NCBI GenBank assembly: GCA_903825285.1
Contig: CAIJZY010000038.1
Coordinates: forward strand, 1-64,000
From: an uncultured Opitutia bacterium
Lineage (GTDB): Bacteria > Verrucomicrobiota > Verrucomicrobiia > Opitutales > Opitutaceae
Direction: 5' to 3'
DNA length: 64,000 nucleotides
In this document: piece by piece, positions 43,755 to 62,815 of the stretch
Numbering within the stretch: position 1 is the first letter of the stretch
Layout: each line of letters begins with the position of its first letter
Translations under genes and position numbers: made by a program
The notes under the pieces: model-generated
Told to the model about the DNA's origin: nothing
What the model saw: only the letters and a program-made list of their open reading frames with translations
Databases searched by the model: none

Positions 43755-44873
43755 TCACATCGCCATGCGCGCCCAGCCCAGGCGGTTGGCGTCGAGCGGG
43801 GGCAGGCCGAGGATCTCGCGGCCGAGGGCGACGTAGTAGCGGTAGTTCTCGATCGGGGTGCCGTTGGGGATGCGGTGGTCGAGGCCGAAGGCGCAGCCGC
43901 CCGCGCGCAGCGACGGGTCGAGCTTGTACTCCAGCTCGCGCCGGATCGCGGCGCTGTCCTGCCGCAGCACGTGCTTGTCGAGGCCGCCGCGCATCGCGAG
44001 CCGCTTCCCGTAGGTCCGGCGCAGCTCCACGATGTCCATGCCCGCGGCCGGCTCCATCGGGTAGATGCTGGTGAGCCCGCAGTCGAGGAGCGCGGGCACG
44101 ACGGGGTTGATGTTGCCGTCGGTGTCCTGCTCGAAGATGCGCGCGCCGCGCGACGACATCAGGTCCCAGACCTTCCGGTAATAGGGCTGGAAGTACTCGC
44201 GGATCTGCACGGGGCCGACCATGGGGCCTGATTTCCCGGCGAAGTCCTCGTGCACCATCAGCTGGTCGATGTGCAGCTTCTCGCTCAGCGGCTCGAGCAC
44301 GCGCATCGTGGTGTCGGTGATGGTCGCAACGATGTCGGCCATCAGCTCGGGCTGCTCGTAGTAGGCGAGGCAGGCGATCTCCTCGCCCATGAGGTCGCGC
44401 GGCGTGTCGAACGCGCCGGGCATGTGCGCGACGATCAGGCTGCCCGCGGCCTGCGCCTTGCGGGCGGCCTCGACCTCGTCCCACTTGATGCGGTCGGGCG
44501 AGTAGGTGAAGAACGGTTTCACGCGCAGCCAGTCGTCCATGGTCTGCACCGGGAAGTTCTGCGGCAGCGGGATCGTCGCCGTCTTTTTCAGCAGCAGCAT
44601 CTCACGGCCGAGGCAGTCGCGCTCACGGCGGAGGTCGGGCGTGTCCTCAAGCAGCACCGGCGGCGGGCCCTGGATGTGGGTGTAGCCGCCGCAGAAGGCG
44701 TACGGCACGAAGTCCCAGTCAAAGGCGCTCATGTTGATCTCCGCCTCCGCGGCGCCCTGGGCGCGCCATTCCGCATCGAGCCCGACAAGCGGCCCGAAGA
44801 GTTCGGTGAACATCGGCCGCGGGGCGTGGCCGAAGGTCATCAGGTCGAGGTACTGTTCACGGTTCCAGCGCAT
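43755..44873 (-). CDS. URO-D-superfamily protein (putative corrinoid methyltransferase), paralogue 1
   Basis: This 372-residue protein has the uroporphyrinogen decarboxylase/MtaA fold, starting at ATG 44873 (MRWNREQYLDLM). The barrel shows the family run DLMGEEIACLAYYEQPELM. At the metal-site strand it reads FEQDTDGNINP, where MtaA has His-x-Cys-Gly. It closes with GLDHRIPNGTPIENYRYY. It lacks the decarboxylase active-site pattern and is not the haem enzyme. In this locus it may act on a methylated substrate or on a corrinoid partner. Last URO-D gene of a leftward group of four. Confidence 0.85.
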   Translation of the reverse strand: MRWNREQYLDLMTFGHAPRPMFTELFGPLVGLDAEWRAQGAAEAEINMSAFDWDFVPYAFCGGYTHIQGPPPVLLEDTPDLRRERDCLGREMLLLKKTATIPLPQNFPVQTMDDWLRVKPFFTYSPDRIKWDEVEAARKAQAAGSLIVAHMPGAFDTPRDLMGEEIACLAYYEQPELMADIVATITDTTMRVLEPLSEKLHIDQLMVHEDFAGKSGPMVGPVQIREYFQPYYRKVWDLMSSRGARIFEQDTDGNINPVVPALLDCGLTSIYPMEPAAGMDIVELRRTYGKRLAMRGGLDKHVLRQDSAAIRRELEYKLDPSLRAGGCAFGLDHRIPNGTPIENYRYYVALGREILGLPPLDANRLGWARMAM

Positions 44874-44882
44874 GTTCTTGGG

Positions 44883-45000
44883 GGTTGAAAGGGGCGGGTT
44901 GAAAGTTGCAGGGGACGTCAGCAGCCGGACGAAAGGGAGGTGGAGGAAAAGTGTGCGAGGGCGCGGCCTTTCAACTTTCAACACTCGGCTTTCAACTCTC
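44883..45000. repeat. Intergenic inverted repeat, family A, copy 3
   Basis: GGTTGAAAGGGGCGGGTTGA at the left (44883-44908) pairs with CTTTCAACTTTCAACACTCG and following bases at 44968-45000. It lies between two leftward URO-D genes, overlaps the stop of the upstream one and ends about 10 bp before the ATG of the downstream one. Confidence 0.75.
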
Positions 45001-46047
45001 CAAGCGCTCCCGGTGCGCCTGGAGATACGAGCGGTATTGCTCGAGGATGGGGGCGGGAATGTTGGCGGGGAGGTGGTTGCCGGTGGCGAGGATCACGCCG
45101 CGGCACTTGCGCGCCAGGGCGAGGGAGCGGTCGAGCGAGGCGCGCACCGTGTCCCAGGTGCCGAAGGTGAGGTCGCGGCAGTCCACGGCGCTGCCCACCA
45201 GCGCGGTGGTCTGGCCGAACTTCTCCACCATCTCGCCGAATTCCATCACCGGCTCGAAGATCAGCCCGTCGGCGCCCGCGGCCACGATGTCGGCCGCGAA
45301 CTCGCGGAAGTCGCCGTCGGAGCAGAACAGCACCTTCTTGCCCGCGCGCTTGAGCGGCTTCCACAGCTCGGCGTAGCGGGGGATGATCACGGAGCGGTAG
45401 ATCTCGGGCCGCATGAACGCGCCCGCGGTCCACACGAAGTCGTCGTGCTGGATGATCGCCTCGGCGCTGGTCTGCGCCCAGGCATCCATGTGAAACTTGG
45501 TGCGCCGGTAGAAGCTGTCGAAGACGCGCTCCATCTTGTCCCGGTCCGCCGCCGCCTCGAGCAGCATGTCCCAGCCGAAGGCCTGGATCGCGCCCGACAC
45601 GATCGTCTTGTAGTAGCCGCCGGTGCAGAGCTGGTCCGGGAAGTCGCGGCGCTTCTGCGCCACCCACGCCTCGTAAGCCGCCACCTGCTCCGCCATCGTG
45701 GGCAGGCCGTACTCCGTCACGGCATCGAAGGCCCAGACCTCCTCCGGTGTCTCAAACGGGCAGTGCTGCGGCTTGCGCAGGTCGCTGCCGTCGGACGCAT
45801 ACTCGGCGTGCCCCATGTCGGTGCAGCGGCCGAACCGGGACCAGTCGCCGCGCAGGCCGTCCTCGACGGTCCAGAGCATATCGAGCCCCCAGTGCGCGTA
45901 GAGCGAGCGCACCGACGCCTGCGTGTCGGGCACCGGGCCGACGGCCCGGTGCAGTCCGGCCTGGTGGTACTCCAGGCTGTATTCCGTGCGGGCAAAGCGC
46001 GACACGGGTTTCAGGGCGATCGTGTCGAGGGCAAGTTGGCGGCTCAT
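44992..46047 (-). CDS. URO-D-superfamily protein, paralogue 2
   Basis: This 351-residue member of the URO-D/MtaA superfamily is divergent from its neighbours in the N-terminal third (FARTEYSLEYHQAG). The barrel has the family segment PEIYRSVIIPRYAELWKPLK. The metal-site strand reads VLFCSDGDFREF, with Cys-x-Asp-Gly. The end shows GVILATGNHLPANIP, where others have an SxDH motif. The substrate is unknown. Confidence 0.82.
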   Translation of the reverse strand: MSRQLALDTIALKPVSRFARTEYSLEYHQAGLHRAVGPVPDTQASVRSLYAHWGLDMLWTVEDGLRGDWSRFGRCTDMGHAEYASDGSDLRKPQHCPFETPEEVWAFDAVTEYGLPTMAEQVAAYEAWVAQKRRDFPDQLCTGGYYKTIVSGAIQAFGWDMLLEAAADRDKMERVFDSFYRRTKFHMDAWAQTSAEAIIQHDDFVWTAGAFMRPEIYRSVIIPRYAELWKPLKRAGKKVLFCSDGDFREFAADIVAAGADGLIFEPVMEFGEMVEKFGQTTALVGSAVDCRDLTFGTWDTVRASLDRSLALARKCRGVILATGNHLPANIPAPILEQYRSYLQAHRERLES

Positions 46048-46070
46048 GGAGAAGGGGGTGGTTGACCGCT

Positions 46071-46143
46071 CATTCGCGCTAATTTCCGCTGATCGAGAGA
46101 CGGCGGGTTGGGGAAATCAGCGAGGAATGGCGTGCATTCGTGG
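46071..46143. repeat. Intergenic inverted repeat, family D
   Basis: CATTCGCGCTAATTTCCGCT at 46071 onward pairs imperfectly with ATCAGCGAGGAATGGCGTGC at 46116 onward. It occupies the gap between two leftward URO-D genes and touches the stop codon of the upstream one. Confidence 0.55.
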
Positions 46144-47271
46144 TTAAAAAGCCTCGCCGCGGAGGAGTTGGTGCTTGCGGTGCATGTAGTGCTCGAAGTT
46201 CGCGAGCGAGACGTCCGGCGGGACAAGGTGGTCCACGGAGGGGATGAAGCCGCCGTCGGCGATGAGCGGCTGGAGCGTGCGCAGGTGCGCGTCGATCGCG
46301 GCGAGATCCTTCGCCAGCTCGCGCTTGTCTACCCCGCCCCACAGCCGCAGGTCGCGGCCGAATTTCTTGCGGATGTCGAGCGGGTCCATGTCGGACGCGC
46401 GCTCGAGGGGCCAGATGGCGTCCACGCCGGCCTCCATGAACGGCTTGATCACGAGCTCGCAGTTGCCGTCGGTGTCGATGATGACCCAGCGGACGCCCGC
46501 GGACTTGAGGTAGGCGATGAGGCGCTTCAGCTGCGGGAAGATGAACGTGCGGTAGGTCTCGGGGCTCAGCAGCGGGCCGTTCTTCATGCTGAGGTCCTCG
46601 TTGATGAAGACGTAGTCGGGCTTCACGCCGGCCTCCAGGATCGGCCGCACGGCCTCGATGGTGAAGTCGGTGATGAACTCCATCATCTCGTGCATCATCG
46701 CCGGCTCGTCGTACCAGGCGTAGCTGAGGTTCTCGGTGCCCATCCACTCGCGGGCCCGCCAGTAGTAGCCGAGGATGGAGCAGTTCCGGCCGAGGATGAG
46801 CGGGTGCTGGCGGCGGGCCCAGCCGGGCAGCAGGAACTCCCGCCAGTGCAGCGGGTGGCGCACCGGGCACGACGGCCGGAAGCGGTGCTTCAGCTCCTGA
46901 AAGTCCGCCGGGGTCGTCACCGGGAAGCTGATGTACTCGTCCATGCTCATGCGCATGCCCTCGGCGGTGCCGGTGATGAGCGCCTTGGTGGTGACGCCAT
47001 TGGCGCCCCGGATGACCTCGATCTCGCCCTCGCGGCTGAGGACCTTCACCTCGAAGGGCGGGACCATGTCCGTGCGCACGTCGATGTACTCGCGCGGGTC
47101 GAGGTCCCAGCGCGGCTCACCGGTGAACCAGTCCCAGTGCAGGTCGTCGGCCGGGAGGCCCTCCGCGCGCCAGCGCTGCTTGGTCTGGACCCAGACGCCG
47201 ACCTCGTGGTTCGGCACCCGGTCGCCGGGCTGGTAGTTCATGCAGGCGTGGAAGCGATCGAGCGGGGTCAT
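46144..47271 (-). CDS. URO-D-superfamily protein, paralogue 3
   Basis: This 375-residue protein starts at ATG 47271 with MTPLDRFHACMNYQPGDRVP, the standard opening of the superfamily (xxRFxAxxxxxPxDRxP). It has SPETYRTFIFPQLKRLIAYL and a metal-site strand reading WVIIDTDGNCEL (Asp-x-Asp-Gly). It ends with GGFIPSVDHLVPPDVS. It is close in type to paralogue 9. The gene lies between URO-D paralogues on the same strand and is probably co-transcribed with them. Confidence 0.87.
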   Translation of the reverse strand: MTPLDRFHACMNYQPGDRVPNHEVGVWVQTKQRWRAEGLPADDLHWDWFTGEPRWDLDPREYIDVRTDMVPPFEVKVLSREGEIEVIRGANGVTTKALITGTAEGMRMSMDEYISFPVTTPADFQELKHRFRPSCPVRHPLHWREFLLPGWARRQHPLILGRNCSILGYYWRAREWMGTENLSYAWYDEPAMMHEMMEFITDFTIEAVRPILEAGVKPDYVFINEDLSMKNGPLLSPETYRTFIFPQLKRLIAYLKSAGVRWVIIDTDGNCELVIKPFMEAGVDAIWPLERASDMDPLDIRKKFGRDLRLWGGVDKRELAKDLAAIDAHLRTLQPLIADGGFIPSVDHLVPPDVSLANFEHYMHRKHQLLRGEAF

Positions 47272-47315
47272 GGGAAGGTTGGGCAGAGGGGACAAGGGAG
47301 CGGGAGCAGGGATAG

Positions 47316-48479
47316 TTAGTAGGTGCAACGCTTGGCCTCGTCGGCAAAGGCGTGGAGGAGCTCGGGCTTGGCCTCGAAGAAGTGGTCCGAGGGACTGAGG
47401 ATGAAGCCGCCGCCGGCCCCGGCCTCGCGGAAGCAGCGGCGGACCTCCGCCCGGGTCTCCTCGGGCGTGGCGGTGGTGAAGAAGCGGTTCTGGTCGAAGC
47501 CGCCGATGAAGCAGACCTTGTCGCCGATGCGGCGCTTGGCCTCGGCCAGGTTCATGTCGCCGCCCATCGCGGGGGGCGTGAAGGTCTCGAGCGCGTTCGA
47601 GCCCAGCCCGACGAGCCGCTCGAGGATGGGCATCATGCCGCCGCAGGTGTGGTAGACCACGCGCTGGCCGGCGGCGCGGGCGTGGGCGATGACCTCGCGG
47701 TCATAGGGCGCGACGAACTCGTCGAAGACCTTCGGCGAGATCACGGTCGAGGAGGCGTCGCCGCCGCCGTGCTCGATCAGGTCGTAGCGCGCGCCCTTCA
47801 TCGAGTCGGCGAAGCGCACCTTGCGGTCGCGCAGGATGCCGAGGAAGGCGTGGACCCACTGCGGGTCGTCGAAGGTCGCGAGGATCATCTCCTCGACGCC
47901 GTAGAGCACGCAGGCGTCCTGCCAGCAGCCGGGCTGCCCGTAGAGCTCGAAGCAATTGATGTTGCCGCGGATCAGGGTGGTGTCGCCGTACCGGTCGGCC
48001 AGTTGGTTGATCGGGCCCGGGTCGCAGAGCGGCTGGGGCGCGAACTCGGCGATGAGGTCGATGTCGGACTTCTCCTTGAGCAGCCGCTCGGAGACCCAGG
48101 CGGTGTACTCGTTGCTCTGGAGCTCGATCGTGAGGGTCTTGCGCGGCGTGATGATGCGGTGGCGCGTGGTGGCGTACTCGCGGCCGGGGACGTCCTCGTG
48201 CTCGAAGCGCCACTGGTCCGAGGCAATCCGCGGGGCCTCAAGGAAGCCCGGCTGGTGGCCCGGCTCGAAGTAGGCGCCGGTGGCGGTGTCCGGCCGGTGG
48301 GCCTGGACCCAGCAGATCGGGTCGAGCCCGAAGGTGGCGAAGAACTCGTCGTCCGTCTTCCCCGGGAGGTATTTGTTCAGGTAATAACGCATCAGGTGAT
48401 GCGTCGTGGCCGGCAGGTGGTCCGTCGGGCGGCGGTCGAGCGCCGCCACGAGGCGTTGCTTGGGGGACATGGGTTTCAT
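47316..48479 (-). CDS. URO-D-superfamily protein, paralogue 4
   Basis: This 387-residue protein starts at ATG 48479 or 48470 and heads the leftward group of four. It opens with SPKQRLVAALDRRPTDHLPA. The metal-site strand reads VVYHTCGGMMPI, keeping the His-x-Cys-Gly pair of zinc-dependent methyltransferases such as MtaA. At the third-ligand position it has FILSPSDHF instead of Cys. It could bind metal with two or three ligands. It is divergent from the MtaA-like gene at 48551 across a short 71-bp promoter gap. Confidence 0.88.
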   Translation of the reverse strand: MKPMSPKQRLVAALDRRPTDHLPATTHHLMRYYLNKYLPGKTDDEFFATFGLDPICWVQAHRPDTATGAYFEPGHQPGFLEAPRIASDQWRFEHEDVPGREYATTRHRIITPRKTLTIELQSNEYTAWVSERLLKEKSDIDLIAEFAPQPLCDPGPINQLADRYGDTTLIRGNINCFELYGQPGCWQDACVLYGVEEMILATFDDPQWVHAFLGILRDRKVRFADSMKGARYDLIEHGGGDASSTVISPKVFDEFVAPYDREVIAHARAAGQRVVYHTCGGMMPILERLVGLGSNALETFTPPAMGGDMNLAEAKRRIGDKVCFIGGFDQNRFFTTATPEETRAEVRRCFREAGAGGGFILSPSDHFFEAKPELLHAFADEAKRCTY

Positions 48480-48550
48480 GGACAAAAAATGCGCAGCGAA
48501 GGCCGCAGCGCGGGATTGATTTTGACGGCGGCGCCCAGCATCACGCTGGG

Positions 48551-49576
48551 ATGACTTCGATCGAACGAGTGCGCCGCACGCTCCGCGGCGAATCCGTGGA
48601 CCGCCTGCCGGCGCAGCCGATGGCGATGATGTTTTCCGCGCGGCACGCGGGCATCCCGTTCATCGACTACACCAAGGACGGGCGGAAGATGGCCGAGGCG
48701 CAGCTCAAGCTGGTCGAGGACTTCGGGCTCGACTGCCTGCTCACCTGCTCCGACCCGGCGCGCGAGGTCATCGACATCGCCGGCGAGGGCAGCGTGGACT
48801 GGTTCACCGACCAGGGGCCGGCGATCAACGAGGAGCGCGCGGCGCTGGCGGACAAGCTGCGGCTGCGGGCCTTCCAGGTGCCCGACCCGCTCGGCGGCGG
48901 CCGCATGCACGACCGGGTGAAGAGCATCGAGCTGATGCGCCGCACCGCCGGACCGGGCATGTCCATCGTCGGCTGGATCGAGGGCCCGCTCGCGCTCGCG
49001 GCCGAGCTGCGCGGGCTGAACACCATCATGCTGGACTTCGGCGACGACCCGCAGTTCGCGCACGACCTGCTGGCCTTCACCGCCGACGTGGCCATCGCCT
49101 ACGCCCCGGCGCAGATCGCGGCGGGCGCGGACACCATCGGCATGAGCGACGCGGCCGCGGGCCTGATCGGCCCGACGCTGTACGAGGAGTTCCTCTGGCC
49201 GCAGCAGAAGCGGGTGCTGGAGACGATCCGCCGGAACCATCCCGACGTGCTGCTGCGCCAGCACATGTGCGGGCGCATCGACCGCCTTTATCCGAAGATG
49301 GCGCAGCTGCCGGTGGACATCTACGAGATTGACTTCCCCGCCAACCTGGCGCTCGCGCGGGCCCAGCTCGGGCCCACCCGCACGCTGGCCGGCAACGTCT
49401 CGACCATCACCGACCTCCTCGAGGGCACGCCGGAGCGCGTCTACGAGGCCTGCCGGCGCTGCCACGAGACCAGCGGCAAGTATTTCATCGTGGGCGCGGG
49501 CTGCGAGATCTCGCCCCTCACCCCGCCGGAGAACGTCCGCGCGATGGTCGCCTACGCCCGGGAGCACCAGCCGTGA
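48551..49576 (+). CDS. MtaA-like methylcobamide methyltransferase, URO-D superfamily, paralogue 5
   Basis: This 341-residue protein is the one here that most resembles MtaA/MtbA methylcobamide:thiol methyltransferases. It opens with SIERVRRTLRGESVDRLPA. Only this paralogue shows all three presumed zinc ligands: His and Cys in LRQHMCGRID and a late Cys in VGAGCEI. MtaA-type enzymes bind a thiol through zinc and transfer methyl from a corrinoid protein. Bacteria here would use another thiol than coenzyme M, and the homocysteine methyltransferase encoded nearby makes the natural acceptor uncertain. It is transcribed alone, divergent from both flanking operons' directions. Confidence 0.88.
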   Translation: MTSIERVRRTLRGESVDRLPAQPMAMMFSARHAGIPFIDYTKDGRKMAEAQLKLVEDFGLDCLLTCSDPAREVIDIAGEGSVDWFTDQGPAINEERAALADKLRLRAFQVPDPLGGGRMHDRVKSIELMRRTAGPGMSIVGWIEGPLALAAELRGLNTIMLDFGDDPQFAHDLLAFTADVAIAYAPAQIAAGADTIGMSDAAAGLIGPTLYEEFLWPQQKRVLETIRRNHPDVLLRQHMCGRIDRLYPKMAQLPVDIYEIDFPANLALARAQLGPTRTLAGNVSTITDLLEGTPERVYEACRRCHETSGKYFIVGAGCEISPLTPPENVRAMVAYAREHQP

Positions 49577-49641
49577 CGGCGGCGCGGGCGGCGACCCCGC
49601 CCTGCAATCGGACAAACTGGTGACCGGGTCGCGCATGGCGT

Positions 49642-50913
49642 TTATCGGCGGGCCTCGACGAGGCCCTGGGCCATGGCGGCCCATTCCTGGAGGTGCTGGG
49701 GGCGGCGGGCGATGGTGGAGATGTCCTTGAGGACGATCTCGACGTGGCCCCCGCGGGTGCAGTCGAGCATGCGCTCGAGCTCGGCGCGCGCCTTGGGCAC
49801 GTCCCAGGTGTCGGTGGCGAAGACCGCGGGGTTGGGCTTGTAGCTAAAGACGTAGTCGCCCCGCACGGCGGCGGCGGCGCGCTCGACGCGGATGCGGTAG
49901 TTCATCGAGACCTTCCGGACGTTGGGGATGCGCCGGATGATCTCCATCTTGGTGTCGAGGACCTCGCAACAGCCGTAGGCGATCAGCCCCCAGCGCTGGA
50001 GCCACGGGCGGTCGTGCCGCAGCGCGAACTCCCAGTGCATGTCGGGCGAGACCTCGGTGAAGATCTGCGCGTTGGAGCAGCCCCAGAGGTGCTCGGGCCG
50101 CGGATGCGCGGGGTTGAACCCGGCGCGCGGCAGCGACGTGGTGTAGCCGTAGGCGCCGGCGCCGATGCGGCAGTTGTTCTGGTTGTCGGCCAGGAGGTTC
50201 AGCGCGACGAGCTGGTCGAGCTCCTTCAGGTAGCAGTGCACGATGCGCTCGACGGCGGCGTTGATCACCTCGGGCTGCTCGATCAGGTCGGTCAGCGCCT
50301 CCTGCACGCCGTACCACATCACGAGGTTGTCCCACGGCGTGTACCAGTAGTTGTTCAGCCCGCGCTCGCGCACCGGCATCAGGTCGCCGAAGGCCGACCG
50401 CATCGCCTCCAGCCGCGCGGCGGTGTCGGCGCGGTCCACCGTCACCACCGGCTCCTTGATCTTGGGCAGGTCCGCCAGCGAGGAGATCTGCGGCTCGAAG
50501 TGCTGCGAGGAAATGCCGCCGTTGGTGATGTTGAGCAGCTCGCCCTGGCGGACGAGGCCGAAGCTCGTGCTGCGCCACGCGATCGGGCACGGCACATGGT
50601 CGTCAAAGATCATGTCGCCCGGGAAGTGCCGCCAGGCGTAGAGCTGGCGGCGGAGGTCGTTCTCGAGGTTGCGGGCCCAGGTGGCGGTGCAGCGGGGGAC
50701 GAGCTCGGGCACGTCGGCGCTGAATTCGTGCCACGGCACCTCGGTGATCCAGATCATCGGCCGCACGCTGCGGAGGTCGTTCATCGCCTCCCACAGCCGG
50801 GCCTTCTCGCGGTGCACCGGCAGGGCGGCGATCGCGGCGTACTGCCCGACCAGGCCGCGCAGGACCTCGCGGTCGGCGGGGCTCAGCGCGACCGGCTCGG
50901 CGGTGGCGCTCAT
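49642..50913 (-). CDS. Divergent URO-D-like protein, paralogue 6
   Basis: This 423-residue protein starts at ATG 50913, overlapping the stop of the preceding gene. It is the most diverged of the group, with a long N-terminal region (REKARLWEAMNDLRSVRPMI) and a metal-site strand apparently replaced by LIAYGCCEVLDTK. The barrel order and the end (GHVEIVLKDISTI) still fit the superfamily. Proteins of this type are often encoded beside corrinoid proteins and RACo, as here. It is the last gene of the DUF1638-RACo-URO-D-URO-D operon. Confidence 0.78.
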   Translation of the reverse strand: MSATAEPVALSPADREVLRGLVGQYAAIAALPVHREKARLWEAMNDLRSVRPMIWITEVPWHEFSADVPELVPRCTATWARNLENDLRRQLYAWRHFPGDMIFDDHVPCPIAWRSTSFGLVRQGELLNITNGGISSQHFEPQISSLADLPKIKEPVVTVDRADTAARLEAMRSAFGDLMPVRERGLNNYWYTPWDNLVMWYGVQEALTDLIEQPEVINAAVERIVHCYLKELDQLVALNLLADNQNNCRIGAGAYGYTTSLPRAGFNPAHPRPEHLWGCSNAQIFTEVSPDMHWEFALRHDRPWLQRWGLIAYGCCEVLDTKMEIIRRIPNVRKVSMNYRIRVERAAAAVRGDYVFSYKPNPAVFATDTWDVPKARAELERMLDCTRGGHVEIVLKDISTIARRPQHLQEWAAMAQGLVEARR

Positions 50914-51944
50914 GCGCGGCCTCCCCGCCCGGGCTGCGTGAGCCGGTCCCAGGTGGCGTAGACCGAGTGGACGTTCTCCGGGCGGGCGGCGGCGCCGAAC
51001 TCGCACTGGGCGATGCAGCCGCCGTTCTTCCAGAGGTGGCGGTGGACGTCGCCGACGGCGCGCGCGATGTCGGCCGGGGTGCCCGCGGGCAGGAGATGCT
51101 GGCGGTCGATCTCGCCCCAGAAGGTGATCTTCCCCGCGAAGGCCGCGAGCGACTCGATGCCCATGCAGAAGAGCTGGGAGTTCACCGCGTCCACGCCCAC
51201 CTCGATGAGGTCGGGGTAGATGGCGGTGATGTGCCCGTCGGAGTGCATGAAGAGCTTCTTGCCGTGGGCGTGGGCGATCTGGGCGTAGTCGCGGTACATC
51301 GGCTTGAACAGCTCGCGCCAGAGCCGCGGCGCGATGAGCAGCGCGCGCTGCGAGCCCCAGTCGTCCATGAACCGGAGCGTGTCCACGTCGGTGCGCGCCC
51401 ACGCCTCCAGCAGCTCGCAGTAGAACGCGTGCATCTCGCGCATGAACGCGAGCAGCTCGGCCGGCGGGTCGGCGAGGTCGAGGTAGAGGTTCTCCGAGCC
51501 CCGGATGAACTGGAGCTGCTCGAACGGCCGCGGGCAGGGCGCGGCGAAGGTGTAGCGGTCGGTGGCGGCGCAGTCGCGGTTGATCGCGTCGCGGTCGAGC
51601 GTGAGCCACTCGCGGGGCACGTGGACGCGCGCGCGGTCGGCCACCCAGTCGCGCACGGGCGGGTTCTTCACCTCGCCGATGACGCCGCGCTGGATGTTGA
51701 TGAAGGTGCAGCCCCACTCGTCGGTGAACTCGCCGACGACGTGCGGCGCGCCCTGGGTCGGGGCGATGGCCGACTCGTGGCCGGAAATGAAGGCGAAGTC
51801 CGTGGGAAACTCGCGCTCGATCTCCTTGAGCTCCGCCGGGTACGACTCGGCCGCGATGGGGAGAACCCAAAGGTCGCGGGCCGCGCGGGGCGGTCCGGCG
51901 AATTCGAGGGTGCGTTGCACGATTTCTCGAGGGGTGGCGCTCAT
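50910..51944 (-). CDS. URO-D-superfamily protein, paralogue 7
   Basis: This 344-residue protein has the segment APRLWRELFKPMYRDYAQIA and a metal-site strand KLFMHSDGHITAI (His-x-Asp-Gly). In place of a final Cys it has KNGGCIAQCEFG, which does contain Cys residues near the third-ligand position. It lies downstream of the corrinoid-activating protein gene with a 42-bp gap, and its stop overlaps the next start. A methyltransferase role with the corrinoid protein at 54529 is likely. Confidence 0.87.
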   Translation of the reverse strand: MSATPREIVQRTLEFAGPPRAARDLWVLPIAAESYPAELKEIEREFPTDFAFISGHESAIAPTQGAPHVVGEFTDEWGCTFINIQRGVIGEVKNPPVRDWVADRARVHVPREWLTLDRDAINRDCAATDRYTFAAPCPRPFEQLQFIRGSENLYLDLADPPAELLAFMREMHAFYCELLEAWARTDVDTLRFMDDWGSQRALLIAPRLWRELFKPMYRDYAQIAHAHGKKLFMHSDGHITAIYPDLIEVGVDAVNSQLFCMGIESLAAFAGKITFWGEIDRQHLLPAGTPADIARAVGDVHRHLWKNGGCIAQCEFGAAARPENVHSVYATWDRLTQPGRGGRA

Positions 51945-51986
51945 GGTGAAGGGGGGCCGGGCTCAGCCGGCGGGAAAAAGGGAGGG

Positions 51987-54354: not shown

Positions 54355-54528
54355 TTTAAGGGCAAAGTCCTAAGCTGCGAATAATGCCTGTTTAAGACTG
54401 TAAACTCCCGTCCACAGGCCCTGACAACGAGTGCCGCATGCATTTTTTGGGAATACTTATGTTCACCCCGGGAGAATTCACCCTGTTCGCATTTACTTCA
54501 TGGCCAACGACGCCCTAGAAGGAATGTC
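54355..54528. promoter_or_regulatory. Divergent promoter region of the two corrinoid operons
   Basis: This 174-bp gap must hold promoters for both the DUF1638-RACo operon and the corrinoid-protein operon. Two direct copies of TTCACCC at 54462-54468 and 54477-54483 are 15 bp apart and could bind a regulator. AGAAGGA precedes the corrinoid-protein ATG as a good ribosome site. I found no cobalamin-riboswitch core here. Confidence 0.45.
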
Positions 54529-55167
54529 ATGCCCCTCCTCACTGATTTGACTGCTGCCGTGGCTGCCGGAAAACGGACGGACACTGTGCGGCTCACCCAG
54601 GAACTCCTCGCGGCCGGAACCGGCCCGCAGGCCATTGTCGAGCAGGGCCTCGTGCCCGGCATGGCAATCGTCGGCGACCAGTTCAAGCGCAACGAGATCT
54701 TCGTGCCCGAGATGCTGGTGGCGGCGCGCGCGATGAAGGAGGCGTTGAAGCTGCTGGAGCCGATGCTCGCCAGCGCGGGCATCAAGCCGAAGTACACCGC
54801 CATCATCGGCACCGTGCAGGGCGACCTTCACGACATCGGCAAGAACCTCATTTCCATGATGTGGCGCGGGGCGAACTTCGCGGTCATTGACCTGGGCACC
54901 AATGTGCCGCCGGAGAAGTACCTCGCGGCCGCGCAGGAGCACAAGGCCCACCTCGTCGGCCTCTCGGCCCTGCTCACCACCACGATGCCCGCGATGAAGG
55001 AGACAGTCCGCGCCCTCAAGGCGGCCGGCCTGCCCAACACGCGCATCATGATCGGCGGCGCCCCCATCACGCAGGCTTTTGCGACCGACATCGGGGCCGA
55101 CGGCTATGCCGCCGACGCCGGTACGGCCGTGGACGTGGCCAAGCAACTCGTGGCGTCGCTGGCCTGA
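54529..55167 (+). CDS. Corrinoid-binding methyl-carrier protein (MtaC/MtbC-like)
   Basis: This 212-residue protein has the two-domain layout of methanol and methylamine corrinoid proteins: a four-helix cap (about residues 1-85, GLVPGMAIVGDQFKRNEIFV) and a Rossmann B12-binding domain. GDLHDIGKN at residues 98-106 holds the DxHxxG motif, whose His101 should coordinate cobalt from below. Downstream motifs are VGLSALLTTTM and MIGGAPI. It should carry the methyl group between a substrate-specific methyltransferase and an acceptor enzyme. It is the first gene of a seven-gene rightward operon and the only corrinoid protein seen, so several URO-D proteins may share it. Confidence 0.93.
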   Translation: MPLLTDLTAAVAAGKRTDTVRLTQELLAAGTGPQAIVEQGLVPGMAIVGDQFKRNEIFVPEMLVAARAMKEALKLLEPMLASAGIKPKYTAIIGTVQGDLHDIGKNLISMMWRGANFAVIDLGTNVPPEKYLAAAQEHKAHLVGLSALLTTTMPAMKETVRALKAAGLPNTRIMIGGAPITQAFATDIGADGYAADAGTAVDVAKQLVASLA

Positions 55168-55200
55168 CCGGCCTCGACCCCGGTTCCGAGGGGACCGGCC

Positions 55201-56286
55201 ATGAGCACCACATCCATGACGGGATGCGAGCGCGTGAACCGCATGTTCGCGCGCCAGGATCAGGACCGCATCCCGCGGCAGGACACCTTCTGGCCCGAGA
55301 CCATCACCCGCTGGCAGCGCGAGGGGCTGCAGTGGGACCACCACGACGCCCTGCGGTTGCTCGAGGCGGACTTCGCTGGGCTCTGCTGGTCCTGGCCGCC
55401 GGTCTTCCCGGGCCAGCGGGAGCTCCTGCGGGAGGACGCGGAAACCGAGACGGTCCGCGACGCCTGGGGCGGCATCGTGCGCACCTGGAAGGGCCGCTCG
55501 GGCACGCCCGAGCACGTCGGCTTCGGCTGCGACAGCCGCGCCATCTGGGAAAAGACCTACCGGCCCGCGATGCTGGCGGCCCCCAACCAGGTGGACGTCC
55601 AGATGGCCGCCGTGCGCTATGCCGACGCGCGGAAGCTGGGCCAGTGGACCCACCTCTCCGGCGTCGAGGGCTTCGAGGCCCTGCGCAAGATTCTCGGCGA
55701 CGAGACCTGCCTCATGGCGATGGTGGACGACCCGGAGTGGATCCGGGATGTCGTCGCCGTGCACACCGAGGTGGTGCTGCGCTCGTGGCAGTCCGTACTC
55801 GACCAGGGCGTGAAGCCCGACGGGCTCTGGATCTACGGCGACATGGCGTTCAACCACGCCACCATGTGCTCGCCCGCGATGTACCGCGAGCTGGTCTGGC
55901 CGTTCCACAAGCAGATGGCCGACTGGGCCCACGAGCGCGGGATGAAGGTGATCTACCACACCGACGGCCGCGTGAGCGGCGTGCTCGACCTCTACATCCA
56001 GGCCGGCTTCGACTGCCTCCAGCCCATCGAGGCGAAGGCCGGCATGGACATCCGCCAGTTCGCGCCGACCCACGGCGACCGCCTCGCGATGATCGGCAAC
56101 ATCGACGTCATGAAGATGGCGACGAACGACCTGGGCCTCATCGAGGAGGAGATCCGCACCAAGTTCGCCGCCGGCATGGCGACCCGCGGCTACGCCTACC
56201 ACTCCGACCACTCCGTGCCCCCGCAGGTGAGCTGGGACACCTACAAGGCCATCATCGGGATGGTGGAGCGCTACGGCTACTACTGA
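55201..56286 (+). CDS. URO-D-superfamily protein, paralogue 8
   Basis: This 361-residue protein has the superfamily segments SPAMYRELVWPFHKQMADWA and VIYHTDGRVSGVL (metal-site strand, His-x-Asp-Gly), and ends in AYHSDHSVPPQVSW. It follows the corrinoid-protein gene by 33 bp, the usual place for the substrate-specific methyltransferase partner. That makes it a good candidate for the enzyme loading methyl groups onto the corrinoid. The substrate is unknown. Confidence 0.88.
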   Translation: MSTTSMTGCERVNRMFARQDQDRIPRQDTFWPETITRWQREGLQWDHHDALRLLEADFAGLCWSWPPVFPGQRELLREDAETETVRDAWGGIVRTWKGRSGTPEHVGFGCDSRAIWEKTYRPAMLAAPNQVDVQMAAVRYADARKLGQWTHLSGVEGFEALRKILGDETCLMAMVDDPEWIRDVVAVHTEVVLRSWQSVLDQGVKPDGLWIYGDMAFNHATMCSPAMYRELVWPFHKQMADWAHERGMKVIYHTDGRVSGVLDLYIQAGFDCLQPIEAKAGMDIRQFAPTHGDRLAMIGNIDVMKMATNDLGLIEEEIRTKFAAGMATRGYAYHSDHSVPPQVSWDTYKAIIGMVERYGYY

Positions 56287-56295
56287 CCCTTCCGC

Positions 56296-57426
56296 ATGAA
56301 TCCGTCCCCGATCAAACCCTTCCTCCCGAAATGGCGCGGCCCGATGACCGACCGCGAGCGGTTCCGCCGCCAGATGCACCACCAGCCGGTGGACCGGTGC
56401 TTCAACATGGAGTTCGGGTACTGGGACGACAACTTCAAGCTCTGGCCGATGTTCCGCGACCACGGCATCACGAGCAACGAGGCCGCGGACATCTTCCTGA
56501 ACTTCGACCGCACCGGGACCGTCTGGTCGCCCTGGATGCACCCGGTGTTCCCCTACGACGAGATCTCGCGCACGGCCAACAGCCGCATCATGCGCAACGG
56601 CGACGGGCTGATCGCCGAGGTGCCGCTCGACGGCCATGACACCATCCCCCACTTCCTCGAGGCCACGGTCAAGACGCCCGACGACTGGGCGAAGGTGAAG
56701 GCCGAGCGCTTCGACCGGAAGCATCCCGACCGCAAGCTCGACCTCGCCGCCATCCGGCGCGACCACCCAGCCGACCGCGACTACCCGCTCGGCATCTGGG
56801 CCGGCTCGATGATCGGCAAGGTGCGCGACATGCTCACCGTCGAGGGCCTCGCCTACGCCGTCTACGACTATCCCGAGATGGTCGAGGACATCGTCGAGAC
56901 CTCCTGCCTGCTCGTCGAGGACACGCTCGACCAGGTGCTGCCCCACATCCAGTTCGACTATGCGGCGGGCTGGGAGGACATCTGCTACAAGAGCGGGCCG
57001 CTCGTCTCGGTCAGCTTCTTCCGCGACATCGTCGTCCCGCGCTACCAGCGCATCAGCAAGAAGCTCCGCGCGCACGGCATCGACATCTGGTGGATCGACT
57101 GCGACGGCGACGTGCGCCCGCTGATCCCGCACTTCCTCGCCGGCGGCGTGAACACGATGTTCCCCTGGGAGGTCAACGGCTCGGGCCACCCGGGCGAGTC
57201 GCTCGACAAGTGGGGTCCCGAGCTCCGCATCATGGGCGGCATGGACAAGATGGTCCTCGGCCGCAACCGCGCGGAGATCCGCCAGTGGCTCGAGTCGCTC
57301 GTGCCGTACGTCGCGAAGGGCGGCTTCATCCCGTTCTGCGACCACCGCTGCCCGCCCAACGTGAACCCCGACGACTACCTCTACTACCTCAAGCTGAAGG
57401 AGGACCTGCTCGGGCTGAAGTCCTGA
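56296..57426 (+). CDS. URO-D-superfamily protein, paralogue 9
   Basis: This 376-residue protein opens with MTDRERFRRQMHHQPVDRCF after a short leader. The metal-site strand reads IWWIDCDGDVRPL (Asp-x-Asp-Gly), like paralogue 3, followed by GGVNTMFPWEVNGS. The end is GGFIPFCDHRCPPNVN, which carries two Cys near the third-ligand position. It begins nine bases after the previous gene and is clearly operonic. Its role, as methyl-donor or acceptor enzyme, is not known. Confidence 0.87.
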   Translation: MNPSPIKPFLPKWRGPMTDRERFRRQMHHQPVDRCFNMEFGYWDDNFKLWPMFRDHGITSNEAADIFLNFDRTGTVWSPWMHPVFPYDEISRTANSRIMRNGDGLIAEVPLDGHDTIPHFLEATVKTPDDWAKVKAERFDRKHPDRKLDLAAIRRDHPADRDYPLGIWAGSMIGKVRDMLTVEGLAYAVYDYPEMVEDIVETSCLLVEDTLDQVLPHIQFDYAAGWEDICYKSGPLVSVSFFRDIVVPRYQRISKKLRAHGIDIWWIDCDGDVRPLIPHFLAGGVNTMFPWEVNGSGHPGESLDKWGPELRIMGGMDKMVLGRNRAEIRQWLESLVPYVAKGGFIPFCDHRCPPNVNPDDYLYYLKLKEDLLGLKS

Positions 57427-57439
57427 GCGGTCGCCACCC

Positions 57440-58699
57440 ATGACCTCCCGCGAAAAAGTCCAGCGGGCCCTCGCCCACCAATCCGGCCCCGTGCCGGTGG
57501 ATTTCGGCAGCACCGGCCTCACCGGCCTGCATGTGAGCTGCGTCGCGGCGCTGCGCGAGCACTACGGGCTGCCGGCGCACCCGGTGAAGGTCTGGGAGCC
57601 GTTCCAGATGCTCGGCGAGGTGGAGGACGACCTGGCCCGCGTGCTCGGGTCGGACTGCGTCGGCGCCTTCGGCCGCGGGACGATGTTCGGCTTCGCCAAC
57701 GAGGGCTGGCATGAGTGGCGCACGCCGTGGGGCCAGCTGGTGCTCGTGCCCGCGGGCTTCCGGCCGCGCGAGGAGAAGTCCGGCGACGTCTACCTCTACC
57801 CCGAGGGCGACCGCACGGTGCCGGCCAGCGGCCACATGCCCGCCAGCGGGTACTTCTTCGACGCCATCGTGCGCCAGGAGCCGATCGACGACGACCACCT
57901 GAACCCGGCCGACAACTGGGAGGAGTTCACGCCGCTCAGCGCGGCCGACCTCGAGCACTGGCGGCACGAGTTCTCCCGCGTCGGCCACGAGACGCGCGCG
58001 GTCGTCAGCGGCATCGGCGGCACCGGCTTCGGCGACATCGCGCTCGTGCCGGCCGCGTTCCTCAAGCACCCGAAGGGCATCCGCGACGTCGGCGAGTGGT
58101 ACATCTCGCTCGTGGAGCGCCGGGAGTATGTGCACCAGATCTTCGCCTACCAGTGCGACGTGGCGCTGCGGAACCTCGCGACCTTCGCGGAGCTCGCCGG
58201 CGACAAGGTGGATGTGATCACGATCTGCGGCACCGACTTCGGGACGCAGCAGTCGCAGTTCTGCTCGCCGGCGACGTTCGACGAGCTCTACGCCCCGTAC
58301 TACCGCCGGGTGAACGACTGGGTGCACCGGCACACGCGGTGGAAGACCTTCAAGCACTCGTGCGGCGCGGTCCGCCCGCTGATCGACCGGTTCATCGACG
58401 TCGGCTTCGACATCCTCAACCCCGTGCAGTGCTCCGCCAAGGACATGGACCCGGTGCGGCTGAAAGCCGACTTCGGCGACCGCATCATCTTCTGGGGCGG
58501 CGGCGTGGACACGCAGCGCACCCTGCCCTTCGGCACGCCGAAGGAGGTCCGCGCCGAGGTCACCGCGCGCCTGCGCGCGTTCTCCCCGCACGGCGGCTTC
58601 GTGTTCAACACGATCCACAACATCCAGGCGCGCACCCCCGTGGCCAACATCATCGCGATGGTGGACGCCATCCAGGACTTCAACGGCCGCAGCGCCTGA
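57440..58699 (+). CDS. URO-D-superfamily protein, paralogue 10
   Basis: This is a 419-residue member with SREKVQRALAHQSGPVPVDF at the start and an insertion around residues 95-170. The metal-site strand TFKHSCGAVRPLIDRF keeps His-x-Cys-Gly, and NPVQCSAKDMDP follows. The end reads GGFVFNTIHNIQ, the superfamily form with His but no Cys. This type is common among uncharacterised URO-D methyltransferase-like proteins. It is co-transcribed with the corrinoid protein. Confidence 0.88.
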   Translation: MTSREKVQRALAHQSGPVPVDFGSTGLTGLHVSCVAALREHYGLPAHPVKVWEPFQMLGEVEDDLARVLGSDCVGAFGRGTMFGFANEGWHEWRTPWGQLVLVPAGFRPREEKSGDVYLYPEGDRTVPASGHMPASGYFFDAIVRQEPIDDDHLNPADNWEEFTPLSAADLEHWRHEFSRVGHETRAVVSGIGGTGFGDIALVPAAFLKHPKGIRDVGEWYISLVERREYVHQIFAYQCDVALRNLATFAELAGDKVDVITICGTDFGTQQSQFCSPATFDELYAPYYRRVNDWVHRHTRWKTFKHSCGAVRPLIDRFIDVGFDILNPVQCSAKDMDPVRLKADFGDRIIFWGGGVDTQRTLPFGTPKEVRAEVTARLRAFSPHGGFVFNTIHNIQARTPVANIIAMVDAIQDFNGRSA

Positions 58700-58706
58700 G
58701 CCTCCC

Positions 58707-59792
58707 ATGAATCCCCGCAACCACTACTTCAGCTACGCCGCCGCCAGCGCCCGGTACGAGGCCTGGTGGCAGGGCGGCCGCCTCGACCGGCCGCCGGTCA
58801 CGCTCTACGTGGAGAACCGGGGTTCGCCGCGCGCGCCGCGCTCCAACCACGCCACCCTCCGCGAGCGCTGGCTCGACGTCGGCTTCCAGGTGGAGTCCGC
58901 CCTCGCCGGCCTCGAGACCAGCGTGTGCCTCGGCGACAGCGTGCCGTGCTGGATGCCCAACGTCGGGCCGGACCTGACCTCCACGCTCTTCGGCGCCGAG
59001 CTGATCTTCGGCGAGAACACCAGCTGGTGCCAGCACACGCTCCACTCGACGGAGGACCTGGAGCGCTTCATCGCGACGCCGCCGGACTTCGACAACGTCT
59101 ACTGGCAGACGCTCGACGCGATGATCTCGCTCGCGTCCGACCGGTTCGCCGGGCGCTTCTACGTGTCCGTGCCCGACCTGCACGGCAGCTTCGACATGCT
59201 CGCGGGCCTGCGCGGGCCGGAGAACCTCTGCCTCGACATCATGGACGCGCCCGACCTGGTGCGGCGCGCCAGCCTGCACGCGGCCCGCGCCTACGTGGAG
59301 GCCTACCGCCGGTTCTACCAGCGGCTGACCGCGCTCGGCCAGCCGAGCACGACGTGGTGCTCCTACCTGCACGACGGCCCCGCCTACATCCCGAGCTGCG
59401 ACTTCTGGTGCCTGGTCTCGAAGGAGGTCGGCGTGGACCTGATCCAGCCGAGCATCGAGTTCGAGATGGCTCCGCTCGAGCGCACGATCTTCCACCTCGA
59501 CGGCCCGCAGGCGCTGCAGCACCTCGACACCATGCTGGCGCTGCCGCGGCTCAACGCCGTGCAGTGGGTCTACGGCGCCGGCCACGACAACGCGACGCGC
59601 TGGCTCGACGTCTACCGCCGCTGCCGCCAGGCGGGCAAGGCCGTCCAGATTCTGGCGGAGGACGGCGCCGACGCGCTCCGCGTCCTGCGCGAGCTCGGCC
59701 CCGACGGGCTCTGGCTCACCATCTGCACCCCGTTCCGCAACGCCGACCGCGCTGTCGAGTTCCTGGACGAGGTGCACCGGCTCTCCGCGTGA
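58707..59792 (+). CDS. URO-D-like protein, paralogue 11
   Basis: This is a 361-residue, more distant member. The N-terminal SYAAASARYEAWWQGGRLDR replaces the usual opening. GENLCLDIMDAP-type and TWCSYLHDGPAYIPSCDFW segments fit the barrel, and the metal-site strand may be TIFHLDGPQALQHL (His-x-Asp-Gly). It resembles the group of URO-D-like proteins found with corrinoid proteins in Lentisphaerae and Verrucomicrobia (by recollection, not search). Its stop overlaps the GTG of the next gene. Confidence 0.75.
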   Translation: MNPRNHYFSYAAASARYEAWWQGGRLDRPPVTLYVENRGSPRAPRSNHATLRERWLDVGFQVESALAGLETSVCLGDSVPCWMPNVGPDLTSTLFGAELIFGENTSWCQHTLHSTEDLERFIATPPDFDNVYWQTLDAMISLASDRFAGRFYVSVPDLHGSFDMLAGLRGPENLCLDIMDAPDLVRRASLHAARAYVEAYRRFYQRLTALGQPSTTWCSYLHDGPAYIPSCDFWCLVSKEVGVDLIQPSIEFEMAPLERTIFHLDGPQALQHLDTMLALPRLNAVQWVYGAGHDNATRWLDVYRRCRQAGKAVQILAEDGADALRVLRELGPDGLWLTICTPFRNADRAVEFLDEVHRLSA

Positions 59793-60685
59793 ACCCCCGC
59801 GTCGCCCGCTTCCGCGAAGCCCTCGCCCGCCGGCCGATCCTCGGCGACGGCGCCACCGGCACGCAGCTGCAGCTTCTCGGCCTCGCCCCCGGCGCGGGCG
59901 GCGAGCTCTGGAACGTGGACCGGCCCGACCAGGTGCGGGCGGTGCACCGCGCCTACCGGGACGCCGGCTGCGATCTGCTGACGACCAACACCTTTGGCGG
60001 CACCTCCTACGTGCTCGCCGGCCACGGCGCCGCGCACCGGGTGCACGAGCTCAACGTTGCCGGCGCGCGACTGGCCCGCGAGCTGGCCGGCGACCGTGCG
60101 TGGGTGCTCGGGGACATCGGCCCCTTCGGCGGCATGCTCGAACCCCTCGGCGACGTCACCGAGGATGAGGTCACCCTCGCCTTCCGTGCCCAGGCCGCAG
60201 CCCTGCTCGAGGGCGGCGCCGATATTATCCTGATCGAGACCATGTCCGATCCCGCCGAGGCGGCGCTCGCGGTCCGCGCGGCCAAGGCGGCCGGCGCCGA
60301 GTGCGTGATCGCCACCTACAGCTTCCAGCAGTCCGCCGCCGGCCACCGCACGATGATGGGCACCACCCCGGCGGCCGCGCTCGCCGCGGTGATCGCGGCC
60401 GGCGCCGACGTGGTCGGGGCCAACTGCGGCACGGAGCTTTCCCTCAACGACTATGTGAAGCTAACCGCCGAACTCGTCACGGCCGCCGCGGGCCGGCCCG
60501 TGATCGTCCAGCCCAACGCCGGCTCGCCGCGCCTCGTGGATGGGGCCATCTCCTACGACGAGTCCGCCGCGCAGTTTGCCGCCGCGGCCCCGCGCTTCCT
60601 CGCCGCCGGCGCGCGGATCGTGGGCGGCTGCTGCGGCAGCACGCCGGCGCACCTCGCGGCCATGGCCGCGCACTTCCCCAAATGA
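59789..60685 (+). CDS. Stand-alone homocysteine S-methyltransferase domain protein
   Basis: This 298-residue protein starts at a GTG overlapping the previous stop. It is a complete homocysteine methyltransferase barrel, as found in the first domain of MetH and in betaine- or S-methylmethionine-homocysteine methyltransferases. It opens with ILGDGATGTQLQ. The zinc ligands are Cys in VGANCGTE and the pair in IVGGCCGST near residue 280. It should transfer a methyl group to homocysteine to make methionine. Lying in an operon with a free corrinoid protein, it could take methyl from that protein, mimicking the MetH domains as separate subunits. Confidence 0.9.
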   Translation: MNPRVARFREALARRPILGDGATGTQLQLLGLAPGAGGELWNVDRPDQVRAVHRAYRDAGCDLLTTNTFGGTSYVLAGHGAAHRVHELNVAGARLARELAGDRAWVLGDIGPFGGMLEPLGDVTEDEVTLAFRAQAAALLEGGADIILIETMSDPAEAALAVRAAKAAGAECVIATYSFQQSAAGHRTMMGTTPAAALAAVIAAGADVVGANCGTELSLNDYVKLTAELVTAAAGRPVIVQPNAGSPRLVDGAISYDESAAQFAAAAPRFLAAGARIVGGCCGSTPAHLAAMAAHFPK

Positions 60686-61779
60686 ACGCCCGTGAGAATT
60701 TCCACGCCATGATGTCCGGGGGCCGCCCCGGGTGGATGCCCCTGAATGTGCCGGTCACGCCCCCCGTCGCCGACGAGATCGAGGCGCGCACCGGCGTGCG
60801 CAACGCGGAGCTGGCGTTCGAGACGGACTTCGGGTTCGAGTGGGTCGGCTACAACGAGGACCCGCAGCGGTGGCGCGACGCGCTGGCCGATGTCGCCGGC
60901 TACGTGCTGCCGGCCAAGGCCGAGATCGGGCCGTTCTGCATCGCCCACATCGAGCCGCCCAAGGGCACCGTCGGCAAGGCCTACCACTTCCGCACCATGC
61001 TGCACCCGCTGGAGAAGATCACCAGCGTCGCGCAGCTGGAAAAGCTGCCCTGGCCCGACACCTCCGACCCGGCGCACTACGCCGCCGTCCAGGCGCGGAT
61101 GCAGCAGGTCCACACGCGCGGCAAGGTCGCGTTTGCCGGCATGGAGTGCACCACCTTCGAGGTGTCGTGGTACGCCCGCGGCATGGACAACCTCTTCCAG
61201 GACCTCGCCGAGGGCAACGGCGTCGCCGACTGGCTGCTCGACTGGTTCACGGAGCGCTCATGCCACGTCGGCCGGGCCTTCGCCCGCGCGGGCGTCGACA
61301 TCATCGGGCTCGGCGACGACGTCGGCATGCAGACCGGCATGCTGCTCTCCGTGCCGATGTGGCGGCAGCACCTCAAGCCGCGCCTCGCCAAGGTCATCGC
61401 CGCGATCCGCGAGGCCTCCGGCGGCCGCAAGGTCTGGGTGCACTACCATTCCGACGGCGACATCCTCCCAATCGTGCCGGAGCTGATCGAGGTCGGCGTC
61501 GACATCCTCAACCCGGTCCAGCCGGAGTGCATGGACGCCGCCCTGCTGACCCGCCGCCACGCCAAGGCGCTCGGGCTGAGCGGCATGGTCGGCACGCAGA
61601 CGACGATGCCGTTCGGCACGCCGGACGACGTCCGCCGCCGCGTGCGCGAGATCGCCGCGCTGCACCGCGACCATGGCGCGCGGGTCATGATCGCCCCCAC
61701 CCACGTGCTCGAGCCCGACGTGCCCTTCGCGAACCTCCTCGCCCTGGTCGAGGAGGCGAAAGCCCTCCGCTTCGACTGA
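60682..61779 (+). CDS. URO-D-superfamily protein, paralogue 12
   Basis: This 365-residue protein starts at ATG 60682, overlapping the stop of the homocysteine methyltransferase gene. It opens with ARENFHAMMSGGRPGWMPL. The metal-site strand VWVHYHSDGDILPIV has His-x-Asp-Gly preceded by another His. NPVQPECMDAA follows, and the end is RVMIAPTHVLEPDVP. It is the final gene of the corrinoid operon and converges on cbiB. Confidence 0.87.
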   Translation: MNARENFHAMMSGGRPGWMPLNVPVTPPVADEIEARTGVRNAELAFETDFGFEWVGYNEDPQRWRDALADVAGYVLPAKAEIGPFCIAHIEPPKGTVGKAYHFRTMLHPLEKITSVAQLEKLPWPDTSDPAHYAAVQARMQQVHTRGKVAFAGMECTTFEVSWYARGMDNLFQDLAEGNGVADWLLDWFTERSCHVGRAFARAGVDIIGLGDDVGMQTGMLLSVPMWRQHLKPRLAKVIAAIREASGGRKVWVHYHSDGDILPIVPELIEVGVDILNPVQPECMDAALLTRRHAKALGLSGMVGTQTTMPFGTPDDVRRRVREIAALHRDHGARVMIAPTHVLEPDVPFANLLALVEEAKALRFD

Positions 61780-62796: not shown

Positions 62797-62815
62797 GGCG
62801 GTGCGGGAAGCCCCG

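Follow-up and report, generated by a model that had tools for sequence, protein, structure and literature searches.

What do twelve diverged proteins of the URO-D superfamily do around one corrinoid carrier? This question is raised by an array of genes at positions 43755 to 61779 of the window, the stretch of 64,000 nucleotides analysed here, which corresponds to positions 1-64000 of contig C38 (CAIJZY010000038.1) of an uncultured Opitutia bacterium with a genome of 3.74 Mb and a completeness of about 96%. The answer that we consider likely is a hub-and-spoke, folate-linked corrinoid demethylation system, the substrates of which are probably O-methyl compounds and possibly methylated deoxysugars. 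The unusual feature of the locus is the ratio of its parts, with 30 URO-D matches in the genome against one free carrier and one reductive activator. The original prediction had contrasted the array with known corrinoid systems, described there as usually having one or two methyltransferases per carrier; that figure needs some qualification, since in most type 1 mlp clusters the number is two or three (PMC10418091).

Composition of the array

The twelve URO-D-superfamily genes that had been predicted around a single corrinoid carrier are all present by Pfam, by sequence profiles and, for K, by a structural model, with F recognized by its profile alone. Paralogues A (43755-44888), B (44992-46047), C (46144-47328) and D (47316-48485) lie on the minus strand, followed by E on the plus strand (48551-49576; originally assigned to a minus-strand open reading frame) and by F (now delimited at 49642-50913) and G (50910-51944) on the minus strand. 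The genes for a RACo-type reductive activator (51987-53678) and a DUF1638 protein (53596-54354) are also found on the minus strand, and the remainder of the array is on the plus strand: the carrier (54529-55167), H (55201-56286), I (56296-57426), J (57440-58699), K (58707-59792), a homocysteine S-methyltransferase (PF02574, hereafter HCY; 59789-60685, inside the open reading frame 58766-60685) and L (60682-61779). RACo, DUF1638 and HCY had been expected in the array and are present by Pfam.

The Pfam cut-off for URO-D is passed by nine of the twelve proteins (A, B, C, D, E, G, H, J and L). Protein I reaches 18.8-19.2 bits, which is under the cut-off; with a local profile in which its own relatives are represented, it scores 279 bits. 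No Pfam match was found for F and K in the search of the window proteins. A profile built from 232 related sequences, with F-like and K-like sequences excluded, gave 25.1 bits for K and 23.7 bits for F, whereas no control protein from the window exceeded 5.9. AlphaFold2 models of J and K (mean predicted local distance difference test scores of 80 and 85) have the URO-D fold and match the structures of HemE and MtaA with Z scores of 21-23 and about 20-21, respectively; CdmB (9rui) is not among the structural matches listed for either model. The very divergent F, with an hhalign probability of 34.5% and 13 orthologues, is the least certain member of the array.

With regard to subfamilies, which were placed by NCBIfam models and matches to the Protein Data Bank (PDB), only E (Pfam 206 bits) is clearly MtaA/CmuA-like. 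It scores 152 bits with the NCBIfam model mtaA_cmuA, below the subfamily cut-off of 235, and the remaining members reach at most about 65 bits with models of the MtaA/MtbA type. Profiles of the array gave weak scores of 13 and 44 bits against CdmB. Pairwise identity among the twelve is 11-32% and each has separate orthologues, on which grounds a recent tandem duplication was rejected.

The free carrier is MtgC/MtbC-like, with Pfam B12-binding and B12-binding_2 domains and 193.5 bits against the MtgC model (cut-off 370). Its nearest named relatives among the matches listed are from uncultured Verrucomicrobia, Opitutae and Opitutaceae metagenome-assembled genomes (MAGs), with identities of up to 94%. 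RACo carries the domains RACo_C_ter and Raco_middle, scores 333 bits with the AcsV model (cut-off 800), matches PDB entry 3zyy with an E-value of 7e-81 and is the sole PF14574 match of the genome; the DUF1638 protein matches its family with an E-value of 2e-36. The 30 Pfam URO-D matches of the genome consist of ten array members and 20 proteins encoded elsewhere, the best of which is HemE-like, with F and K standing outside this count. PF02607 has two matches, the free carrier and a 914-residue MetH-like frame on contig C9 that combines PF00809 and PF02607, beside which a second PF02574 gene is located (C9:39987-40907).

Conservation of the array in relatives

Co-occurrence of the URO-D genes with the carrier was examined in the best 80 of 455 carrier loci from relatives, many of which are cut by contig ends. 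At least one URO-D gene is present within the retrieved stretch of 58 loci; 12 loci hold at least nine of the twelve orthologues (taken at 60% identity or more, and 65-94% identical to the array members), and five hold all twelve as whole frames. In a tblastn map of the 12 large arrays, gene order and strands agree with those of the window in every case, with A present, in part cut, in more of them than whole frames show. RACo and the carrier occur in all 12, HCY in eight, always between K and L, and DUF1638 as a whole gene in eight, as a 23-residue match in one and not at all in three. Variation is seen in L035, which has two copies of I, and in L042, which has a second A and is without G and L. 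As 12 of the 80 loci hold at least nine orthologues in the order of the window, the array is old, and because its divergent members each have orthologues in the same order and on the same strands in relatives, it is not a product of chance. The comparison of gene neighbourhoods suggested with the original prediction has thus found co-occurrence with the carrier to be conserved in a group of relatives. Neither of the two refuting outcomes named with that prediction has been observed, the enzymes being placed by NCBIfam models and PDB matches.

Selection and phylogeny were considered as well. The ratio of non-synonymous to synonymous substitution (dN/dS) is about 0.12-0.39 against the relatives L031, L032 and L038, with A absent from the stretch of L031. 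In a tree of array-group orthologues of at least 250 residues from six chosen loci, together with other URO-D rows of the loci, there are 11 groups that are represented by several rows, and ten of these form single starred clades; the A group includes a dispersed paralogue from the bacterium's own genome, K is represented by one row only, and many branches are long, which makes the deep joins unsure. The commonest orthologue in the carrier loci is J (29 of 80), followed by C (25 of 80), and several smaller clusters have kept the carrier and J, often together with C, RACo or HCY. Differently composed arrays are seen in a Verrucomicrobiia MAG (L091), where the carrier is followed by eight URO-D frames, and in a Fimbriimonadaceae locus (L103), where it is followed by three.

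The ratio of URO-D proteins to carriers was also compared in 15 relatives' genomes, picked from the named carrier loci. These hold between five and 46 URO-D matches each, and 11 of them have a single free carrier (E-value of at most 1e-20); of the other four, G003 carries an additional, partial copy and G013, G014 and G015 contain one or two further carriers.

B12 genes and the folate arm

The predicted end of the array at 61779 is confirmed, and the next two genes (61795-63967), both on the minus strand, belong to B12 salvage: CbiB, an adenosylcobinamide-phosphate synthase (61795-62796, by Pfam and NCBIfam), and CbiZ, an adenosylcobinamide amidohydrolase (62816-63967, by Pfam). The contig continues beyond the window (L124, C38:64001-84000) with BtuR, a BtuFCD-like transporter and a TonB receptor, so that genes for B12 salvage and import lie between the array and a folate arm. 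The latter is encoded on the minus strand by a fusion of homocysteine methyltransferase and methylenetetrahydrofolate reductase (MTHFR), a formate-tetrahydrofolate (THF) ligase, a PF00809 protein and an MTHFR with a DUF5981 tail, after which comes an AraC-type regulator.

The PF00809 protein (289 residues, C38:73425-74294, minus strand, 18 kb from the carrier) is the candidate for methyltransferase II (MT-II). It scores 110 bits with PRK07535, under the cut-off of 259, and its relatives in the PDB are 2yci (E-value 2e-14) and 4o0q (1.5e-13); an identity as FolP had been considered for this second PF00809 match and was rejected, as closer analysis found it to be MT-II-like. In nine of the 15 relatives, seven of which have an orthologue of 85-90% identity, an MT-II gene lies on the contig of the carrier at a distance of about 6-24 kb. 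Judged by these homologies, the folate arm offers a possible route from the methylated carrier to methyl-THF and on to formate.

Sites and likeness to known systems

Residues at the positions of H238, C240 and C318 of E were compared across the array. The site letters are His-Cys-Cys in E, His-x-Cys and His in D and J, His-x-Asp and His in H and L, His-x-Asp in G, Asp-x-Asp and His in A, C and I, and Cys-x-Asp in B, with F and K unlike the others. His-Cys-Cys thus occurs in one of the twelve proteins, and at least five kinds of site are found in the array. The three residues of E are invariant among its orthologues, as are many site letters of the other members among theirs. Since His-Cys-Cys is associated with sulfur or selenium substrates, and carboxylates or other replacements with oxygen (PMC10418091), this diversity is what would be expected for different substrates. 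The letters are a hint and not proof, because CdmB and one O-demethylase are reported to function without zinc (PMC13222342).

The closest parallel is found in the three-component O-demethylases (Odm, Vdm, Mtv, and CdmBCA of Acetobacterium dehalogenans; PMC13222342), which combine a methyltransferase I (MT-I) of the URO-D fold, a free corrinoid protein, a pterin-binding MT-II that passes the methyl group to THF, and an ATP-driven reductive activator. All four kinds of component are present here: URO-D-fold MT-I genes (with F the weaker case), a free carrier, an MT-II gene nearby and a reductive activator. By homology, the donor side of the array resembles the O-demethylases. Unlike in these systems, there are twelve MT-I genes per carrier, a homocysteine methyltransferase and DUF1638 are added, and the genome is that of a member of the Verrucomicrobiota with haem-copper oxidases. 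A multitude of methyltransferases in one organism has a parallel in A. dehalogenans, for which 26 methyltransferase systems are stated (PMC13222342). MtaA and other methylcobamide:coenzyme M methyltransferases (4AY7) share the fold, and E shares their zinc-site letters. This system is absent among the matches listed from the open-access literature on URO-D, corrinoids, sugars and Verrucomicrobia.

Proposed system and its alternatives

In the proposed system, each of the twelve URO-D proteins would be an MT-I with its own substrate, mostly O-methyl compounds, and would pass the methyl group to the single shared MtgC-like carrier, the cobalt of which would be held in the reduced state by RACo, in many relatives together with DUF1638. 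The MT-II beyond the window would transfer the methyl group to THF, and methyl-THF would be converted by MTHFR and formate-THF ligase to formate and ATP, while homocysteine methyltransferases would direct part of the methyl groups to methionine; the genes for B12 uptake and salvage would supply the cofactor. What the analysis establishes is the genes, with their homologies, their order and their conservation; we infer the direction of flow, the methyltransferase activity of each enzyme and the oxygen nature of the substrates. The multi-substrate demethylation that had been proposed for the array is well supported by this setting, in which the carrier comes with an activator, MT-II, a folate arm and genes for B12 uptake, and the array genes stay with the carrier in a group of relatives; its substrates are putative.

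Several observations weigh against this proposal. Among the 80 related-carrier loci, many of them cut by contig ends, 47 lack all twelve orthologues, and in 22 no URO-D gene lies within the retrieved stretch; the carrier therefore also functions without the twelve. HCY was not found in the retrieved stretch of four large arrays (L035, L040, L042 and L043), and no whole DUF1638 gene lies between RACo and the carrier in L037 (which has the 23-residue match), L042, L044 and L047; as these four arrays are large and syntenic, DUF1638 may be dispensable or encoded elsewhere. Two of the nine relatives with a nearby MT-II have a protein of only 34-37% identity, MT-II is on a different contig in five of the 15, among them G014 and G015, where it lies next to a second carrier, and in one of the 15 it was not found. 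The chemistry of F and K may differ, as the usual site letters are absent from both. In other Verrucomicrobiota, MtaB, the methanol:corrinoid methyltransferase, is found next to or near a homologue of the carrier (L079:10637-12016 and L092:11678-13057). The host, furthermore, is probably no strict anaerobe, because its genome has three matches to haem-copper oxidases, and all described O-demethylase systems that we know of are from anaerobes.

The core of the array could instead be a split B12-dependent methionine synthase of the Phaeobacter and Ruegeria type, with the URO-D proteins as additional, non-catabolic methyl donors. The split enzyme of Phaeobacter also has a free carrier, a RamA-like activator, DUF1638 and separate PF02574 and PF00809 proteins, and methionine synthesis in P. 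inhibens requires these same kinds of parts (PMC5764234). In Ruegeria pomeroyi, one carrier serves both methionine synthesis and betaine demethylation (PMC12478193), the methyl donor enzyme there being a pfam06253 protein, unlike the URO-D array found here. A relative of HCY is present in 35 of the 80 carrier loci, and the retrieved stretch of L057 contains a carrier, RACo, DUF1638 and HCY but no URO-D gene. Against this, the genome has other candidates for methionine synthesis in the C9 PF02574 protein beside the 914-residue PF00809/PF02607 frame and in the HcyMT-MTHFR fusion (HcyMT, homocysteine methyltransferase), the four large arrays in which HCY was not found are at odds with it, and both the formate-THF ligase and MTHFR beside MT-II and the 30 URO-D matches go beyond what methionine synthesis would need. 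We regard this explanation as unlikely. That most of the URO-D proteins are non-corrinoid TIM-barrel enzymes, for example decarboxylases or lyases, which merely lie near the carrier, appears improbable. It would agree with the divergence of F and K and their missing site letters, and with the fact that the dispersed URO-D genes of the genome have no free carrier on their contig or stretch. The latter is a consequence of the genome having only one such carrier, which as a single gene can serve dispersed genes in trans, and the tight co-localization with carrier and RACo, conserved across relatives, argues for a corrinoid role.

Type 1 mlp clusters for methyl-sulfur or methyl-selenium compounds likewise group several URO-D proteins with a single carrier and a single activator, and E, the only array member that is clearly MtaA-like by models and PDB matches, has the His-Cys-Cys site. 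PMC10418091 describes these clusters as co-directional and from obligate anaerobes, with Mlps that almost always have His-Cys-Cys and with no THF methylase within 20 kb. The array departs from the second criterion, a single direction, with RACo on the minus and the carrier on the plus strand, and from the fourth, with MT-II 18 kb from the carrier. The 11 array proteins that lack His-Cys-Cys, a difference from the usual site that is not a formal criterion, and the haem-copper oxidases of the host point the same way. An mlp cluster is thus a very improbable explanation, and the folate-linked demethylation system is retained as the preferred one.

Substrates

The O-methylated sugars suggested in the original prediction are putative substrates with indirect support, which comes mainly from two dispersed paralogues that neighbour genes for rhamnose transport and a mutarotase. 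On contig C32 (L122:9989-13938), RhaT, a URO-D gene, RhaM and a second URO-D gene follow each other on the same strand. A URO-D gene is found at most 1.5 kb from RhaM in eight of 30 loci (the best 30, from 75 matching genomes of 141 searched), compared with none of 30 loci for aldose epimerase (from 27 matching genomes of 29 searched; Fisher p 0.0046, a post hoc comparison of partly orthologous loci). The eight loci include that of the bacterium itself; six share the same one or two orthologues and the other two come from one genus. Around the carrier, RhaM occurs in three of the 80 loci (L079, L092 and L104), which taken alone is close to chance expectation. In L079, RhaM adjoins a URO-D gene; L104 combines, within 10 kb of the carrier, RhaM with an orthologue of the second URO-D gene of C32, a sodium symporter, an alpha-L-fucosidase and a formyl-transferase/ACT protein.

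Among the other dispersed URO-D genes, the one at L125 neighbours a sugar-type ABC transporter, that at L132 a Gfo/Idh/MocA protein and that at L130 a putative glycoside hydrolase; no substrate hint was found among the at most five neighbouring proteins at each of L120, L123, L128, L131, L135, L136 and L137. Among the products of the window's other genes are a GH38 protein, a heparinase-like protein, an alpha-galactosidase (Melibiase_2), enzymes of the mandelate-racemase fold and Gfo/Idh/MocA oxidoreductases. The rhamnose and sugar hints bear on the dispersed paralogues more than on the array. O-methylation of sugars and other biomolecules is generally considered a protection against their breakdown. 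It is a plausible but tentative suggestion, and one that we hold with some doubt, that Opitutaceae-like Verrucomicrobiota remove the O-methyl groups of methylated deoxysugars, for example O-methyl-rhamnose or O-methyl-fucose, by a B12-dependent reaction that needs no oxygen; the array and the dispersed URO-D paralogues would all feed one carrier. The presence of O-methylated sugars among the substrates is the weakest inference of the proposal, and cleavage of the aliphatic methyl ethers of sugars by a Co(I) carrier is a substrate class not met among the literature matches listed. Methanol as the main substrate was rejected, as there is no PF12176 (MtaB) match in the genome.

Regulatory regions and other features of the genome

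The divergent intergenic region between DUF1638 and the carrier (54355-54528) contains short conserved blocks in an alignment of 12 stretches. Those upstream of the carrier read ATTTACTT and TTGG.AATA..T.TGT and are possibly promoter or regulator sites. No cobalamin riboswitch was found at the Rfam gathering score in the window or in the stretches L124, L119 and L120. Elsewhere in the genome, a dispersed URO-D gene lies beside an AraC-type regulator with a PocR domain and a protein that matches GH127 at a score below the cut-off (L134:6504-10665); PocR domains are linked to B12-related regulation.

Within the window, G+C content falls from about 70% to about 50% between 28000 and 34600, next to a tRNA-Met gene (34509-34584), which may mark an inserted island. 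A single frame of 1104 residues at 9495-12809 is a fusion of an SBP_bac_5 solute-binding protein with a permease domain, and a similar SBP_bac_1-permease fusion of 774 residues is found close to a URO-D gene at L125:13621-15942. The protein encoded at 36079-37743 has three matches to the TonB C-terminal domain.

Implications

If the proposed system is correct, one carrier would serve a dozen or more enzymes, and the range of substrates could be extended by adding single genes. The bacterium would thereby have a route to methylated carbon that does without an oxygenase and that would return formate, ATP and methionine.

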